Shown piece by piece: positions 19,395-38,703 of a DNA stretch of 39,623 nt. The notes below the pieces were generated by a model, which ran no database searches, was not told where the DNA came from, and worked only from the letters and a program-made list of their open reading frames with translations. Each line of letters opens with the position of its first letter. Positions within the stretch are counted from its first letter, which is position 1. The DNA is from a virus, in IMG/VR virus record IMGVR_UViG_3300036715_001020, positions 1 through 39,623 of that record; one strand, written 5' to 3'. A program made the translations under genes and the position numbers.

Positions 19395-22300
19395 ATGTCG
19401 GCCAACCTCATCCAGAATATCCCGCTGCTCAGTCGTACTGCGCTCAGTATGACGACGGCGACGACCTGGCTGAGTCCTCAGGTCGGCATCACCGACACAG
19501 ACTTCGACGGCGTTACGTCAATCAACCTGGAGGTCGTGGCGACCAACGCCAACTCCACCGCCGTCGATCTGGTACTCGTCTATTGGAACGGGTCCGCGTG
19601 GGCTGATGTAGATACCACGAACGCGAAGGTTACGGTTCCCGGCTCGGTTGCGAACGCGACACGCATTCGCTCAGGTACGAGCTTCAACCTCATCAGCGGA
19701 AACCACCAGTACACCTTCCGCAACGCGGCGGCATCGAGCGCCGTAGTCGCCTACGAGTTCCGCATCATCATCACACAGGTGAATGCCACCAAGACGGCAT
19801 TCTACGTGCCGCTGGGCGGGGCAGTTACGAGTTCCACCAACACCTCGGATACCGCCTACGGAGCCGCCATAGACGCGGTATACAACGGGTCTGTTACAAC
19901 GTTCACATTCCAGAACTCCGTCCGCAGCAGTCTCTTCTACTTCGACGCGAACGCCTACGGGAACACCCTCGGGACAGCCAGCCTGCAAGTAGTCCGCTCG
20001 GTGCAGAATGCCAGCTACGCCGGAAACGACCGCCTCTACAACGTTACTGACGGTCAAGCCGTCGTCACACTCGGCTCCAATACGCAGACCGCAATCACGT
20101 TCTCTGAGACAACGCTGACCGGACAGACCTATTGGGCGAGTGGCAAACAATACCGGATCGAGCATTCCTGCGCCGGAGCTACAACCGCGCGCACCAACAA
20201 CCTGTGGCAGGCGCTCATCGTCATCCGCGTCACCAACCTGACCAAGGGCGAGGTCTACTGGAGGGTCGCAAAGTCCGACTCCACGACATCCGCTTACTAC
20301 CGCGAACACCTACGGGTAAAGCTCGATCACGCATCCTACTCAAACCCAGTCCTCTACCATGAGGTCACCGGAGCTTGTAACGAAAATACCGCTCTAGAGT
20401 GTGCTGTCTACGACCATGGCACCAATGACGCGGGTACGACCAACCCGACACTGCTTGACGCAGTGGTGTGGAACTCTGCGACCAAGACTCGGTATCGGTC
20501 GGCGTCTCTGCCGTTGCCAACGTCTGGTGACCGCTTCATCCACTACAACGCGGCAACCACCAACGCCGACACGTACGCCTCACAGTTTCTCGTAGTAGCG
20601 TTCACGAGCGCGGTAACGCGAGAACTGGCGCTGGCTGGTGAGGCGGTTTCTGGAGTTTCCGTCGCTGCGTCCAAGACCGATGCGACGTGGGAACTTGCCC
20701 TCACAGGCGAGGCCGTCAGCACGGTCGCCGCCAGTGGTACTAAGACGGCCGCAGCAGTCACCCACGAACTCGCGCTGGCAGGCGAGTCCCGGTCCGCAGC
20801 TTCCGCCACAGGGTCCGTCACCCACGCAACGTGGGAACTCTCTCTCGCAAGCGAGTCCGGCAGCGCCGTTTCTGCAACCGGCTCCGTTACCCACGCAATG
20901 TGGGATCTCGCACTAGCCAGCGAGGCCGCATCTCGCGCTTCGGTAACTGGCTCCGTCGTCCATGCGACGTGGGATCTCGCACTAGCAAGTGAGGCCGTCA
21001 GCGCGGTTGTGGCAACCGGCACCATGACCGGTGCAGCCGTCACACATGAGCTGGCCCTGTCTAGCGAGTCCGTCAGCGCGGTAGTGGTAACCGGCACCGA
21101 GACGATCACTTGGCCCACTGGCGGATGGCTCATTACAACCGACACACACATGGTGTCCAGCGACTCCGAGGAGGGAGTCGCTGGCGAGACTCACCCGACC
21201 GAGGGCGGGAACTGGGCGTCCTATATCGCAGCGAACGTGAAGCCAGTAGGTTGGGTTGACTTCGGCGATGAACGCAACACGCAAGGGGTCTACAACGCCG
21301 ATGGCTGTCAGGACGAATGGACAAACTACGTAAGCTCCATTCAGAACCATCTGCCGCACAGCACGGTAGGCGGTCACGGCACGGTCAACGCGACTTGGGC
21401 GCGACTTCCCGGCAACCACGATGAGGACTACCCTAGCTCGGCTGCGCCGCCGTCCGACTTCTCTGCATTCGAGACGACATTCTGGTCCGCTCCGTTCCAC
21501 TGGACGGCCGACTGGACCGAAGCGAAGATACGCTTCATCGGCTTCCACACGCACATCCGCCACAACGGCAGTGTGGACGGCATTGTCGAGACGGATGAGA
21601 TCGACTGGCTAGAATACGAACTCCAGAATCTTCCCTCTGGCTGGTCCGCCGTCCCGTGCTCGCACATCGGCTATGACTCCACGTTCACTCGCACCATCCC
21701 AGGGGGTGCATCTGAGTCTGAGTGTCATGGCGATGCACTGCGCACGATGCTTGCCAAGTACACAGACCGCATCGCCTGGTGCGCGTCGGGTCACGACCAC
21801 ACCGACAACGTGCATCACGTTGAGAACGGCCTCGTGCACATCTCACACGCCGCTCTTGCATATACCGCTGCCGAACCCGAGAACGGCGGCTGGACGCTCG
21901 CCACCTATGACAGCGCCTCAGATTCCGTCACGCTGCACCTCTACGACGGCCCTCCCGGACCTTACGAACCGTCCAGCGTCAACCCGGCGATCACCGTCTA
22001 CATATCGCGCGTTGGCAAGCCGGAGCCAAAGATTGTCGTTGACGGGTTGGTGGCTGAGTTTGCCGGGTCGCTTGCAAATGGCGGAACCGCTCCGGGTAGT
22101 GGCAGCCTCGCTACATGGACAGACACCGCGTTTGGGGCAGTACATGATGACCTGACGGTTACCAGTCCTGCATGGGTTGGTAATGGTAGCTCCGGCAATC
22201 CCTACGCGCTCCAGTTCAATGGCACGAGCACTTCCGGGGTCGGGCCGAGTTCGGTGGACATTTCTCCGCTCATGGCCAATGACCATCCGGGAACACTGGA

Positions 22301-23894
22301 AGCTTGGGTCTACTTCCCTACCGCGCCCACCACCACGACCAACATCCTCGGCTTCCCGCTGGACTATCGGCGGGGCCTAGGCATGTATTGCCGGTCTACC
22401 AGCGGCAACCTTGGCTACTTCCGCAGCACAGATAGCACCAGCGCATACAACTATGGTGGCGACGTACAGCCGACTGCCGGATGGCGACATTGTGTTGTCA
22501 GCTATGAGGGGTCCGGCGTCTGCAACATCTACATTGATGGTGTAGGAGACAGTGCAACTCTCCTCACGTCGTCGCAGCCAGCGGCAGGGACTACCCCTCA
22601 AGTCGTCATTGGTAACCGTGGTGCGAGTACCTATCTCCAATCGGGATACAAAATCGCTACGGCCCGTGTCTACGATCGGGCACTAACACCCGCTGAGGTA
22701 GCTCAGAACTACAACGCCGGAATCCTCGCCACCAGCAAGAACAGAATCCTTGAGATGGCCTTGTCGTCTGAGGCCCAGTCTGCTATGGCGGCCAGCGGGA
22801 CTCGAACGAGTGCTGTTACCACGCATGAACTGGTGCTGACGAGCGAAGCGAATAGTGCTGTCAGTGTCAACGGCTCCGTCACGCACGCTACTTGGGAACT
22901 TGCCCTCGCAAATGAAACCGTCAGCACGGTAACCGTCACCGGAGGCGTCACGCACGCCACTTGGGCACTTGCCCTCGCAAGTGAGTCCGTCAGCTCCGTG
23001 GCCGCGACCGGATCTATCACCCATGCGACGTGGGAACTCTCGCTATCAAGCGAAGCCGTCAGCACTGCAACCGCAACTGGCAGCGTCACGCACGCTACTT
23101 GGGCGCTCGCGCTCGCGTCCGAGTCTGTATCTGCGGTCAGCGCCTCGGGGCAGAAGCAGGGCGCGCAGACGCGTGAACTAGCGGTTATGAGCGAGGCCAA
23201 GAGCGCCGTGACGGCTACTGGCTCCGTAGTCCATGCAACGTGGGATCTGGCGCTTGCCAGCGAAGCCACGTCCGCCGCATCAGTCAGCGGCTCTGTCGTT
23301 CACGCAACGTGGGAACTCTCCCTCGCGTCCGAGTCGAAGAGCGCCGTAGCTATCAATGGCTCCGTCACCCATGCGACATGGGACATGGGGCTCGCCAGCG
23401 AGTCAAGATCGTCAGTGTCCGCGTCCGGCAAAGTCGCTCACGCTACATGGGATCTGGCCCTTTCCTCAGAATCGGCATCTAGAGTTTCCGCCACGGGCGC
23501 GGTGATTCATGCCGTATGGAACCTCGCGCTCGCTGGTGAGGCAGTCAGCGCGGTATCCGCAACCGGCCGCAGGACCTTGGCACCAGTCACCCACGAACTG
23601 GCACTTGCAAACGAGACTTTCTCGGCAGTCGGAGCGGCGGCAACGATCACACATGCCACATGGGAGCTTGTCCTTTCGAGTGAGGCGGTGTCGAGCGTAT
23701 CCGTCGCCGTCAGCGTTACCGGAGGCCACCTGCACCAATGGCACATCGTCTTCGGCGATCCCGAGATTCTGTGGTCTGCCGGGAATCCTAATGCCTCTTG
23801 GACGATGCAGTTGGCCGAACCGCACTTTGCGGCAGGCGATGCGGAGATACCGCTCAAGCTTGGAGCACCAGAGACAACCTGGAGGATTGAATGA
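19395..23894 (+). CDS. Giant tail fibre with embedded metallophosphoesterase and LamG-like domain
   Basis: 1499 residues. About 1-408: beta-rich N-terminal domain. About 409-568: seven repeats of about 23 residues of the type THATWELALASEAVSAVSATGSV. About 575-870: calcineurin-type phosphoesterase with all five metal motifs: TDTH (Asp583, His585), FGD (Asp625), GNHD (673-676), CSH (His757) and GHDH (799-802). About 879-1109: concanavalin/LamG-like domain (FNGTSTSGVGPSSVDIS, GTLEAWVYFPT, VYDRALTPAEVAQNYNAG). About 1116-1446: fourteen more repeats. A 53-residue tail with tryptophans follows. I infer a long repeat shaft carrying an enzyme and a sugar-binding lectin-like head to the cell surface; the phosphoester substrate is unknown. 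Location after the first fibre gene supports virion placement. Confidence 0.85.
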   Translation: MSANLIQNIPLLSRTALSMTTATTWLSPQVGITDTDFDGVTSINLEVVATNANSTAVDLVLVYWNGSAWADVDTTNAKVTVPGSVANATRIRSGTSFNLISGNHQYTFRNAAASSAVVAYEFRIIITQVNATKTAFYVPLGGAVTSSTNTSDTAYGAAIDAVYNGSVTTFTFQNSVRSSLFYFDANAYGNTLGTASLQVVRSVQNASYAGNDRLYNVTDGQAVVTLGSNTQTAITFSETTLTGQTYWASGKQYRIEHSCAGATTARTNNLWQALIVIRVTNLTKGEVYWRVAKSDSTTSAYYREHLRVKLDHASYSNPVLYHEVTGACNENTALECAVYDHGTNDAGTTNPTLLDAVVWNSATKTRYRSASLPLPTSGDRFIHYNAATTNADTYASQFLVVAFTSAVTRELALAGEAVSGVSVAASKTDATWELALTGEAVSTVAASGTKTAAAVTHELALAGESRSAASATGSVTHATWELSLASESGSAVSATGSVTHAMWDLALASEAASRASVTGSVVHATWDLALASEAVSAVVATGTMTGAAVTHELALSSESVSAVVVTGTETITWPTGGWLITTDTHMVSSDSEEGVAGETHPTEGGNWASYIAANVKPVGWVDFGDERNTQGVYNADGCQDEWTNYVSSIQNHLPHSTVGGHGTVNATWARLPGNHDEDYPSSAAPPSDFSAFETTFWSAPFHWTADWTEAKIRFIGFHTHIRHNGSVDGIVETDEIDWLEYELQNLPSGWSAVPCSHIGYDSTFTRTIPGGASESECHGDALRTMLAKYTDRIAWCASGHDHTDNVHHVENGLVHISHAALAYTAAEPENGGWTLATYDSASDSVTLHLYDGPPGPYEPSSVNPAITVYISRVGKPEPKIVVDGLVAEFAGSLANGGTAPGSGSLATWTDTAFGAVHDDLTVTSPAWVGNGSSGNPYALQFNGTSTSGVGPSSVDISPLMANDHPGTLEAWVYFPTAPTTTTNILGFPLDYRRGLGMYCRSTSGNLGYFRSTDSTSAYNYGGDVQPTAGWRHCVVSYEGSGVCNIYIDGVGDSATLLTSSQPAAGTTPQVVIGNRGASTYLQSGYKIATARVYDRALTPAEVAQNYNAGILATSKNRILEMALSSEAQSAMAASGTRTSAVTTHELVLTSEANSAVSVNGSVTHATWELALANETVSTVTVTGGVTHATWALALASESVSSVAATGSITHATWELSLSSEAVSTATATGSVTHATWALALASESVSAVSASGQKQGAQTRELAVMSEAKSAVTATGSVVHATWDLALASEATSAASVSGSVVHATWELSLASESKSAVAINGSVTHATWDMGLASESRSSVSASGKVAHATWDLALSSESASRVSATGAVIHAVWNLALAGEAVSAVSATGRRTLAPVTHELALANETFSAVGAAATITHATWELVLSSEAVSSVSVAVSVTGGHLHQWHIVFGDPEILWSAGNPNASWTMQLAEPHFAAGDAEIPLKLGAPETTWRIE
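20618..21099 (+). repeat. 69-bp imperfect repeats, block 1 (seven units)
   Basis: Coding repeats in the fibre gene, each about 23 codons: ATG/ACG-TGG-GA(A/T)-CT(T/C) followed by a [SLA]-S-E-[AS] block. Units diverge in third positions and several are 25 codons long, so this is an aged coding array, not a recent perfect expansion. Confidence 0.8.
22739..23732 (+). repeat. 69-bp imperfect repeats, block 2 (fourteen units)
   Basis: The second array of the same module, after the LamG-like domain. Typical unit: W-[ED]-L-[AS]-L-[AS]-S-E-[AS]-x-S-x-V-x-A-T-G-S-V-T-H-A-T. Two units carry a different linker (QKQGAQT and RRTLAPVT), as in block 1, suggesting the two blocks arose from one ancestral array into which enzyme and lectin domains were inserted. 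Confidence 0.8.
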
Positions 23895-37104: not shown

Positions 37105-37119
37105 CGCCCCTCTGGGGCG
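37105..37119 (-). terminator. Possible attenuator hairpin before the excisionase gene
   Basis: On the minus strand CGCCCC-AGA-GGGGCG followed by TTTAT. The 10-nt CGCCCCAGAG (37110-37119 on the minus strand) can instead pair with CTCTGGGGCG at 37164-37173, so the structure has an alternative form. Short stem and weak U-tract. Confidence 0.45.
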
Positions 37120-37148: not shown

Positions 37149-37193
37149 TCAAATGGTGGACACCGCCCCAGAGAGGAAACTCTGAGGCTGCAT
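37149..37193 (-). CDS. Possible 14-residue leader peptide
   Basis: ATG 37193 reading MQPQSFLSGAVSTI and stop. The GGAGGAG of the RNA element copy 1 lies about 10 bases upstream. The antiterminator strand (37164-37173) is inside this ORF, so translation could alter folding. Confidence 0.35.
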   Translation of the reverse strand: MQPQSFLSGAVSTI

Positions 37194-37206: not shown

Positions 37207-37298
37207 CTCCTTCCGTCGGTTTCCTGCGACCATGCGCGGTCCGAGACGTACGGCGCATGGTTTCGGCCTGGTACCGGCAGGCACTCGTCAGGCAGGCT
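37207..37298 (-). ncRNA. Structured RNA element, copy 1
   Basis: 92 nt, minus-strand sense. The same flanks as copy 2: 24 of 24 and 37 of 38 positions are identical, while the 30-nt centre differs. Folding: P1 (37223-37227 with 37292-37296), P2 (37266-37270 with 37278-37282), and a variable 9-bp stem (37229-37237 with 37253-37261). A loop-to-flank pairing ACCG/CGGT (37217-37220 with 37273-37276) could make a pseudoknot. It ends in a Shine-Dalgarno (GGAAGGAGGAG), nine nucleotides after the 98-residue gene. Confidence 0.6.
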
Positions 37299-37307
37299 AG
37301 GCTCCAT

Positions 37308-37604
37308 CTATAGACAGTCAACGCCGAGCGCGCTCAGAATGGCCACCAAGTCCACAATCTCACAATGCTCAAGAACAGCCGCGTCTAGCGGGTACGCGAG
37401 GAGCCATTTCCGCGCTGCCTCGTGTACATCGTCGGCAGTGTACCCGTCGCCCAGTGTCGCAAGGATCTCACGCCCGACGGTGCCGACTTCAGGCAAAGCC
37501 TCTACGTTGCCACAACGCATGAGTGCCGAAAAGTCTGACAAGTCGGCCAGCCTCATATCAAGGGTTCTGTCGGCGCGCTGCTCACAATCCTGGTAGGTTC
37601 CCAT
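37308..37604 (-). CDS. 98-residue protein between two RNA element copies, unknown
   Basis: ATG 37604; the GGAAGGAG end of RNA element copy 2 lies 5 bases upstream. Sequence MGTYQDCEQRADRTLDMRLA, LMRCGNVEALPEVGTVGREI, YTADDVHEAARKWLLAYPLD and a leucine-rich end. Acidic, helical, four cysteines, no known domain. Its context (own structured leader, next to xis-int) suggests regulated expression in the lysogenic or early state. Confidence 0.6.
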   Translation of the reverse strand: MGTYQDCEQRADRTLDMRLADLSDFSALMRCGNVEALPEVGTVGREILATLGDGYTADDVHEAARKWLLAYPLDAAVLEHCEIVDLVAILSALGVDCL

Positions 37605-37609
37605 GGGTG

Positions 37610-37701
37610 CTCCTTCCGTCGGTTTCCTGCGACACTGAGCACGCCTAGCTAATGTGCTCAGCGTTTCGGCCTGGTACCGTCAGGCACTCGTCAGGCAGGC
37701 T
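37610..37701 (-). ncRNA. Structured RNA element, copy 2
   Basis: 92 nt, minus-strand sense. P1 (37626-37630 with 37695-37699), P2 (37669-37673 with 37681-37685), variable stem (37635-37642 with 37654-37661, extended by 37632-37633/37663-37664 and a G-U wobble on the minus strand at 37634/37662). Pseudoknot candidate 37620-37623 with 37676-37679. The 3' end is the Shine-Dalgarno (37610-37617) of the 98-residue gene, 5 bases from its start. I recognise no known riboswitch family. Confidence 0.65.
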
Positions 37702-37728: not shown

Positions 37729-38703
37729 TCAGCTAGAGTAGGCGACAAGCCGTCCGCCGCACAGCGGGCAATGCGGCTGATTGTCTTCATCTATAAAGAC
37801 ACACCGATCTCTGGCGGCCGTCTCTGCCGTATAGGCGTTTCCGTCCACGTCGGTATCCTCTGCGGAAACGAAAGCGTAAGACTCCAGTTGCGCCCCAGCA
37901 CCCAAGCCAACGCAGCCCTGGTAGTACCAATGAGCCGAATCATCCGTTGACCAATAGTGCTGTTCCTCGGGCATATCGAACAGTTGTTCGCGCTGGTGTT
38001 CGGAACCTTCACACTCCAGCACAGCCGATGCGTTATCGAAAAGCGAATAATCATCGTACACGCGGAACACCTCGGCCGAAGTGTACCCGCCACGCACATC
38101 ACATCCCTGGTGGATTTGTAGTGCGATGTACTCGCCGGAACACACGTCCACGGTCTTACCGCTTGCAGTCGGCAGCGTAATGTCGTCTAGGATCGAGAAG
38201 TAGACGTATTGCAGGACTTGCGAAAGCATATCCTCGCCGTTGTAGGTGTTTACGGTAAAGGGTTTATCGTCGTAAGCGATTCCCGAGGCCACCTTGTCGC
38301 TGTGGGCGGCGTTCAAGCGCTCTAGCCAGTCCTCTACGTCCATTGCCGACACATAGACGTTGCGCGTGTTGTAGGGCTCTGAGACAAACTTCCCGCCTTT
38401 GTACTGCTCATTGAGATCGCCGAGATCGGTCTTGAGCGTGCAGACGCCGTGCAGCATGGCGCGGGTAAGTGCGGGATCGTACTCTACGCGCTCCTCAAGC
38501 CAGTGGAACGCGTCCAGCGTGACTTGTAGCTCCGGGTAGTCACCGGCACTCGCGTAAATCGTGGCCGCTGGTTCCGCGTCCAAGTCTCGCGCTTGGTTCC
38601 GTTCCCAGTTTCGACCATAGGCACCGCCGCTGTCTAGGATGTGCGAGCCCGTGGAAGTCTTGAACAGTCTGGTAAGTGCGGTGTGTGTAGTAGATTTGGC
38701 CAT
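37729..38703 (-). CDS. Conserved phage protein of unknown function
   Basis: 324 residues, ATG 38703 with GGGAG upstream. The N-terminal LFKTSTGSHILDSGGAYGRN is a block found in many phage hypothetical proteins. The middle is mixed and aromatic (YNTRNVYVSAMDVEDWL, YVYFSILDDITLPTASG), and the last 20 residues contain HCPLCGGRL, half of a zinc site. No enzyme motif is convincing. It lies in the minus-strand operon upstream of RNA element copy 2. Confidence 0.65.
   Translation of the reverse strand: MAKSTTHTALTRLFKTSTGSHILDSGGAYGRNWERNQARDLDAEPAATIYASAGDYPELQVTLDAFHWLEERVEYDPALTRAMLHGVCTLKTDLGDLNEQYKGGKFVSEPYNTRNVYVSAMDVEDWLERLNAAHSDKVASGIAYDDKPFTVNTYNGEDMLSQVLQYVYFSILDDITLPTASGKTVDVCSGEYIALQIHQGCDVRGGYTSAEVFRVYDDYSLFDNASAVLECEGSEHQREQLFDMPEEQHYWSTDDSAHWYYQGCVGLGAGAQLESYAFVSAEDTDVDGNAYTAETAARDRCVFIDEDNQPHCPLCGGRLVAYSS

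Follow-up and report, generated by a model that had tools for sequence, protein, structure and literature searches.

Predicted type-I hammerhead ribozymes bracket a small phage gene and have relatives linked to Shine-Dalgarno sequences

A viral sequence of 39,623 nucleotides (IMG/VR record IMGVR_UViG_3300036715_001020; hereafter the window) carries on its minus strand two copies of a 92-nt repeat that, judged by core and predicted pairing, are almost certainly type-I hammerhead ribozymes. The copies bracket an open reading frame (ORF) of 98 residues, and our confidence in the reading as a whole, roughly 0.85, lies between that in hammerhead identity and the lower one in a role in making a single-gene mRNA.

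Results

Both repeat copies have the anatomy of a type-I hammerhead

The copies lie at 37207–37298 (copy 1) and 37610–37701 (copy 2), in minus-strand sense. An earlier note had described them as having flanks alike at 61 of 62 positions around a centre that is divergent yet paired, and both statements hold: the 24-nt flank is identical (24/24), the 38-nt flank agrees at 37/38, and the central 30 nt agree at 13/30 while forming a helix of 9 bp (copy 1) or of 11 bp with a G-U among them (copy 2). The shared minus-strand consensus reads CCUGC-CUGACGA-[GUGCCUG NCGGUAC CAGGCC]-GAA-[A...U]-C^GCAGG-AAACCGACGGAAGGAG. What the note had overlooked was the hammerhead catalytic core, made up of the 5' half (CCUGC CUGACGAG) and the GAA and GUC segments. 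The hairpin that the note saw diverge corresponds to stem III and the note's small stem to stem II; its CGGU/ACCG pseudoknot candidate, which is real in both copies and covaries in relatives, is the contact between loop II and the tail.

The core (C3 U4 G5 A6 N7 G8 A9 / G12 A13 A14 / A15.1-U16.1 / C17) is complete in both copies, as are the three core-adjacent pairs (2.1-1.1 C-G, 10.1-11.1 G-C and 15.1-16.1 A-U). Stem I has 5 bp, stem II has 6 bp and one bulge, and stem III has 9 bp (copy 1) or 11 bp (copy 2); the bulged U of stem II sits next to G10.1-C11.1, where many relatives have a bulge too. Both copies are of type I in that the end of stem I is open, and in both loop II pairs with the strand 3' of stem I. 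Hammerheads as a class self-cleave rapidly 3' of C17 and need a contact between stems I and II for speed at low Mg2+ (PMC3088659; PMC11300833). The features are as follows:

37626–37699, minus: copy 2 hammerhead, type I, complete by scans, folding and covariance model
37699–37695 (CCUGC) with 37630–37626 (GCAGG), minus: copy 2 stem I
37694–37688 (CUGACGA), 37667–37665 (GAA) and 37631 (C17), minus: copy 2 core
37687–37668, minus: copy 2 stem II and loop, with one bulged U
37664–37632, minus: copy 2 stem III, 11 bp, first pair A15.1-U16.1
between 37631 and 37630, minus: copy 2 predicted cleavage site GUC^G, by the hammerhead rule (3' of H17)
37620–37679, minus: copy 2 pseudoknot, loop II CGGU (37679–37676) with ACCG (37623–37620), from sequence and covariation in relatives
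37223–37296, minus: copy 1 hammerhead, type I, complete by scans, folding and covariance model
37296–37292 with 37227–37223, minus: copy 1 stem I
37291–37285, 37264–37262 (GAA) and 37228 (C17), minus: copy 1 core
37284–37265, minus: copy 1 stem II and loop
37261–37229, minus: copy 1 stem III, 9 bp
between 37228 and 37227, minus: copy 1 predicted cleavage site GUC^G, by the hammerhead rule
37217–37276, minus: copy 1 pseudoknot, loop II CGGU (37276–37273) with ACCG (37220–37217), from sequence and covariation

A scan for type-I hammerheads (core plus three stems) found both copies in the window and none in 300 dinucleotide shuffles, and a loose core pattern matched these two copies alone. A covariance model (R2) that drew on 19 hammerheads from other viral loci, with the window sequences excluded, returned the two copies as the only significant places in the window, at 62.6 and 61.4 bits (E ~1e-15). 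An earlier model gave 73 bits, a score that proves little by itself because the window copies were part of that model. Against the assignment, thermodynamic folding that allows no pseudoknot favours other folds by 5 and 12 kcal/mol.

None of the hammerhead models of Rfam 15 matched either copy at E up to 1, including RF00163 (Hammerhead_1) and RF00008 (Hammerhead_3), whose catalytic core is the same as that of the window copies; weak Rfam matches to mir-218 and sR36 were dismissed as chance. This failure is a matter of library threshold, not of biological definition, and it likely reflects the long stem III, the short stem I and a pseudoknot that the models do not represent. At gathering scores, Rfam likewise called no hammerhead in 13 loci that hold many of the relatives described below. 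At its curated thresholds it thus misses a large set of phage hammerheads, so annotations undercount them.

Relatives covary in every helix

Relatives were gathered by pattern scans of IMG/VR and genome contigs followed by a structural filter. The pattern prescribed the core as well as some of the 3' side of stem I and of the tail, the filter demanded the stems, and loop II was left free; because the pattern imposed the fixed letters, we count them as no evidence. Filtering left 123 distinct type-I hammerheads at 93 loci, some of which share a contig. Among 113 distinct pattern matches 96 passed, and most of the others were hammerhead-like with one mismatch or an added arm. Some hammerheads (L081:151-223, L122:5604-5681, L140:5483-5557 and L150:3876-3948) carry an extra hairpin-like insert (e.g. 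GCGCGAAAGCGCCTTTGGG) at the start of stem II, beyond which stem II and its loop are otherwise normal.

The earlier note had proposed a covariance-model search for covarying homologues, and these proved plentiful. All helices covary: 15 of 22 pairs changed on both sides in an alignment that includes the window copies (A1), and 11 of 21 did so in one that excludes them (A2). Paired cells made up 93.8% and 94.9% of the alignments, as against 25–45% when the partner was slid by 1–3 columns. Loop II and tail combined as GGU-ACC 38 times, GGC-GCC 35 times, GGU-GCC once and GGC-ACC never, counts that strongly support the pseudoknot, with related sequences counted more than once. The covariation supports a selected structure in the minus-strand RNA that includes the pseudoknot and is linked to the Shine-Dalgarno sequence. 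Outside the hammerhead core, neither alignment contains a conserved unpaired region fit to bind a ligand or protein.

The pair encloses a small coding unit

The surroundings of the two copies, all on the same strand, are these:

37729–38703, minus: upstream ORF of 324 residues (phrog_11344), with relatives in Mycobacterium and Gordonia phages
37610–37617, minus: Shine-Dalgarno GGAAGGAG, 5 nt before the ATG at 37604 and retained on the predicted 3' cleavage product
37308–37604, minus: ORF of 98 residues with no assigned function, bracketed by both ribozymes
37149–37193, minus: mini-ORF of 14 codons (MQPQSFLSGAVSTI) after copy 1 and its Shine-Dalgarno, read by eye, which may not be a gene
37105–37119, minus: terminator-like hairpin CGCCCCAGAGGGGCG with a short T tract, 104 nt past the copy 1 ribozyme
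37228–37630, minus: predicted monocistronic RNA of 403 nt, as delimited by the two cleavage sites

Copy 2 lies between the 324-residue and 98-residue ORFs, and copy 1 begins ~12 nt past the latter with no clear gene behind it. Two coding-strand hammerheads thus bracket ORF 37308–37604 with phage genes nearby, and both copies are close to integrase and excisionase genes. The Shine-Dalgarno reported 5 nt before the ATG is real, and the pseudoknot strand ACCG of copy 2 stands just upstream of it, 2 nt away. Terminator-like matches arise by chance at the rate seen for the hairpin at 37105–37119.

Relatives of the 98-residue protein were found neither in IMG/VR by pattern search nor in phage records by tblastn, and its single-sequence fold reached a pLDDT of 52, too low for a fold search. 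The relatives of the 324-residue ORF in Mycobacterium and Gordonia phages are ~33% identical; in Mycobacterium phage Danforth one directly precedes an ArdA-like anti-restriction gene, a kind of gene that also occurs beside hammerheads (Perreault et al. 2011, PMC3088659). We saw no ribozyme beside homologues of this ORF in Mycobacterium, Gordonia and Erythrobacter phages (L043–L045). Elsewhere in the window, the right contig end (39259–39623) consists of degenerate C-rich tandem repeats with units of ~23, 33 and 12 nt and has no listed ORF of at least 60 codons, and 19395–23894 encodes a 1499-residue ORF in which, read by eye, many copies of a repeat like THATWELALASESVSAV surround a metallophosphatase-like stretch.

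Viral hammerheads share the strand of a following gene

Of the 112 surveyed ribozymes with enough flanking sequence, 93 have a Shine-Dalgarno, a start codon and an ORF of at least 40 codons in the next 130 nt downstream; the opposite strand offers this combination for 10 of 112, and random same-strand positions offer it in 24% of cases. From cleavage site to start, the median distance is 40 nt. We found no quantified Shine-Dalgarno link of phage hammerheads in the openly licensed papers searched. A scan of 77 downstream proteins revealed no common family; similarity to anti-repressors, a sliding clamp or an AAA protein was seen for a few. Because the downstream genes are unrelated, RNA processing fits better than a ligand-specific switch.

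In two contigs, five type-I hammerheads and a probable type III alternate with small ORFs (L014:332-2892 and L017:3492-6052). Each type-I ribozyme starts no more than ~12 nt from a stop codon and is followed by a Shine-Dalgarno and ATG; the probable type III member of the L014 series scores 44 bits against RF00008, whose cut-off is 48.5. Two small ORFs of that series (405-647 and 1988-2236) look paralogous. Tandem series of ribozyme, Shine-Dalgarno and ORF recur in L034, L097 and L108.

These results bear on the reading in the earlier note, which saw in the repeats a translational switch or a small-protein-binding leader. We consider it unlikely that the copies are a leader responsive to a ligand or protein, perhaps in the form of a hammerhead that cleaves under the control of a ligand or of the ribosome. 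Regulated natural hammerheads are allowed for by Perreault et al. (PMC3088659), and with ACCG 2 nt from the Shine-Dalgarno, binding of the 30S subunit should compete with ribozyme folding. However, the hammerhead core is complete, nothing points to a ligand or protein, no conserved unpaired candidate for ligand binding exists outside that core, the relatives' downstream genes have no common family, unlike those of riboswitches, and Shine-Dalgarno accessibility is predicted to be similar before and after cleavage.

Hammerheads directly precede tRNA-Tyr in large tRNA arrays

A variant of stem II led us to large tRNA arrays on five viral contigs, which represent four distinct sequences. On each, a type-I hammerhead directly precedes tRNA-Tyr(GTA), at the following sites:

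L004:8394-8525, hammerhead and tRNA-Tyr
L015:1981-2120, hammerhead and tRNA-Tyr
L160:6872-7007, hammerhead and tRNA-Tyr
L161:7073-7208, hammerhead and tRNA-Tyr
L162:4240-4377, hammerhead and tRNA-Tyr

In all five, the nucleotide after the predicted cleavage site is exactly the tRNA-Tyr 5' end called by ARAGORN, and the 3' strand of stem I is the 5' strand of the acceptor stem. This coincidence suggests that in these contigs the ribozyme could stand in for RNase P on this tRNA. The survey scan showed no ribozyme upstream of the tRNA-Tyr of Racecar (L159). Among the openly licensed papers searched, we found none on a hammerhead directly before tRNA-Tyr.

Discussion

The window pair is a further example of the known gene-flanking prophage hammerheads, one undetected by Rfam. 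In prophages, hammerheads are common on either side of single genes or short gene blocks, and their processing of transcripts into single-gene mRNAs has been proposed; three tandem sets cleaved in vitro and one set in E. coli, and a pseudoknot of the loop II type is possible in ~40% of hammerheads (Perreault et al. 2011, PMC3088659). The window pair resembles these in core, helix layout and the pseudoknot between loop II and the stem I side, as well as in having multiple coding-strand copies that flank single genes in a phage context near an integrase. We found no difference in kind; in the window, the pseudoknot strand of copy 2 lies directly against the Shine-Dalgarno of the next gene. A crystallised pseudoknot hammerhead (PMC11300833; described with the pistol ribozyme) shares the core and a stem II-loop pseudoknot, but it has an extra helix IV and a 6-bp pseudoknot, whereas the window copies have a 6-bp stem II with one bulge and a 4-bp pseudoknot. 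HHphage of haloviruses HF1 and HF2 (PMC3088659) also sits just 5' of a phage start codon, at 13 nt compared with 26 nt from cleavage site to ATG for copy 2, but shows core variations where the window copies have the full consensus.

By analogy with that family, we think it rather probable, though well short of assured, that the paired ribozymes process a polycistronic phage transcript into a single-gene mRNA; what the analysis shows for the window pair is its sequence, structure, covariation and placement relative to genes, whereas its catalytic activity, the processing and any influence on RNA stability or on translation are what we infer from hammerheads in general. In a leftward transcript, each copy would fold soon after synthesis and cut itself at GUC^GCAGG. 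The cut in copy 2 would remove the upstream 324-residue ORF; the 98-residue ORF would be left with a leader of 26 nt that starts with a 5'-OH and keeps the Shine-Dalgarno intact. The cut in copy 1 would set a 3' end capped by the hairpins of stems II and III, with a 2',3'-cyclic phosphate. Together, the cuts (37631/37630 and 37228/37227) would yield a 403-nt mRNA for the 98-residue protein with no need for host nucleases. Decay that depends on pyrophosphohydrolase and a 5' monophosphate does not act directly on a 5'-OH end, and 3' exonucleases are slowed by terminal hairpins; stabilisation of the released RNA is therefore plausible. Folding predicts hardly any change in Shine-Dalgarno accessibility on cleavage (0.39 vs 0.48, secondary structure), so a translational gain is not supported, and we rejected the notion that cleavage frees the Shine-Dalgarno. 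Also rejected was stem III as an address code against cross-pairing between copies, as several contigs carry identical stem III sequences.

It is quite improbable that the copies are degenerate or inactive hammerheads carried along as passengers of a duplicated gene cassette. The near-identical flanks are consistent with recent duplication and no clear gene follows copy 1, but despite 17 differences over 30 positions stem III is fully paired in both copies, and the cores are intact; decay would break both. We give very little credence to the idea that the pair yields a circular or ligated RNA in place of a linear mRNA. Hammerhead pairs do form such RNA in viroid-like RNAs and retrozymes, and both cleavages would give ligatable ends (5'-OH and 2',3'-cyclic phosphate), but the enclosed RNA is a coding unit led by a Shine-Dalgarno, and Perreault et al. 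(PMC3088659) sought spliced or circular products and found none. A DNA-level element, such as a repeated protein-binding site or transposon end, might be suggested by two copies with conserved flanks near integrase and excisionase genes, but is scarcely credible, being already contradicted by the compensatory changes and by the strand bias of the relatives (93/112 on the strand of the next gene vs 10/112), and the G-U pair, pseudoknot and ribozyme core make sense on one strand only, as the earlier note had said of the G-U.

The hammerhead reading puts a well-defined and testable ribozyme, with exact predicted cleavage sites, in the place of a presumed switch of unknown kind. Because the pseudoknot strand lies 2 nt from the Shine-Dalgarno, a bound ribosome and a folded ribozyme are probably mutually exclusive, which we put forward purely as an idea. 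Tentatively, cassettes of hammerhead, Shine-Dalgarno and ORF might form a widespread, gene-independent phage system that gives each small ORF a separate 5'-OH mRNA; with the pseudoknot strand abutting the Shine-Dalgarno, competition between ribosome loading and self-cleavage is possible and may couple maturation and 5'-end-dependent decay to translation. Through the strong link to strand and Shine-Dalgarno seen in the survey, the old question of the purpose of phage hammerheads becomes open to direct testing.
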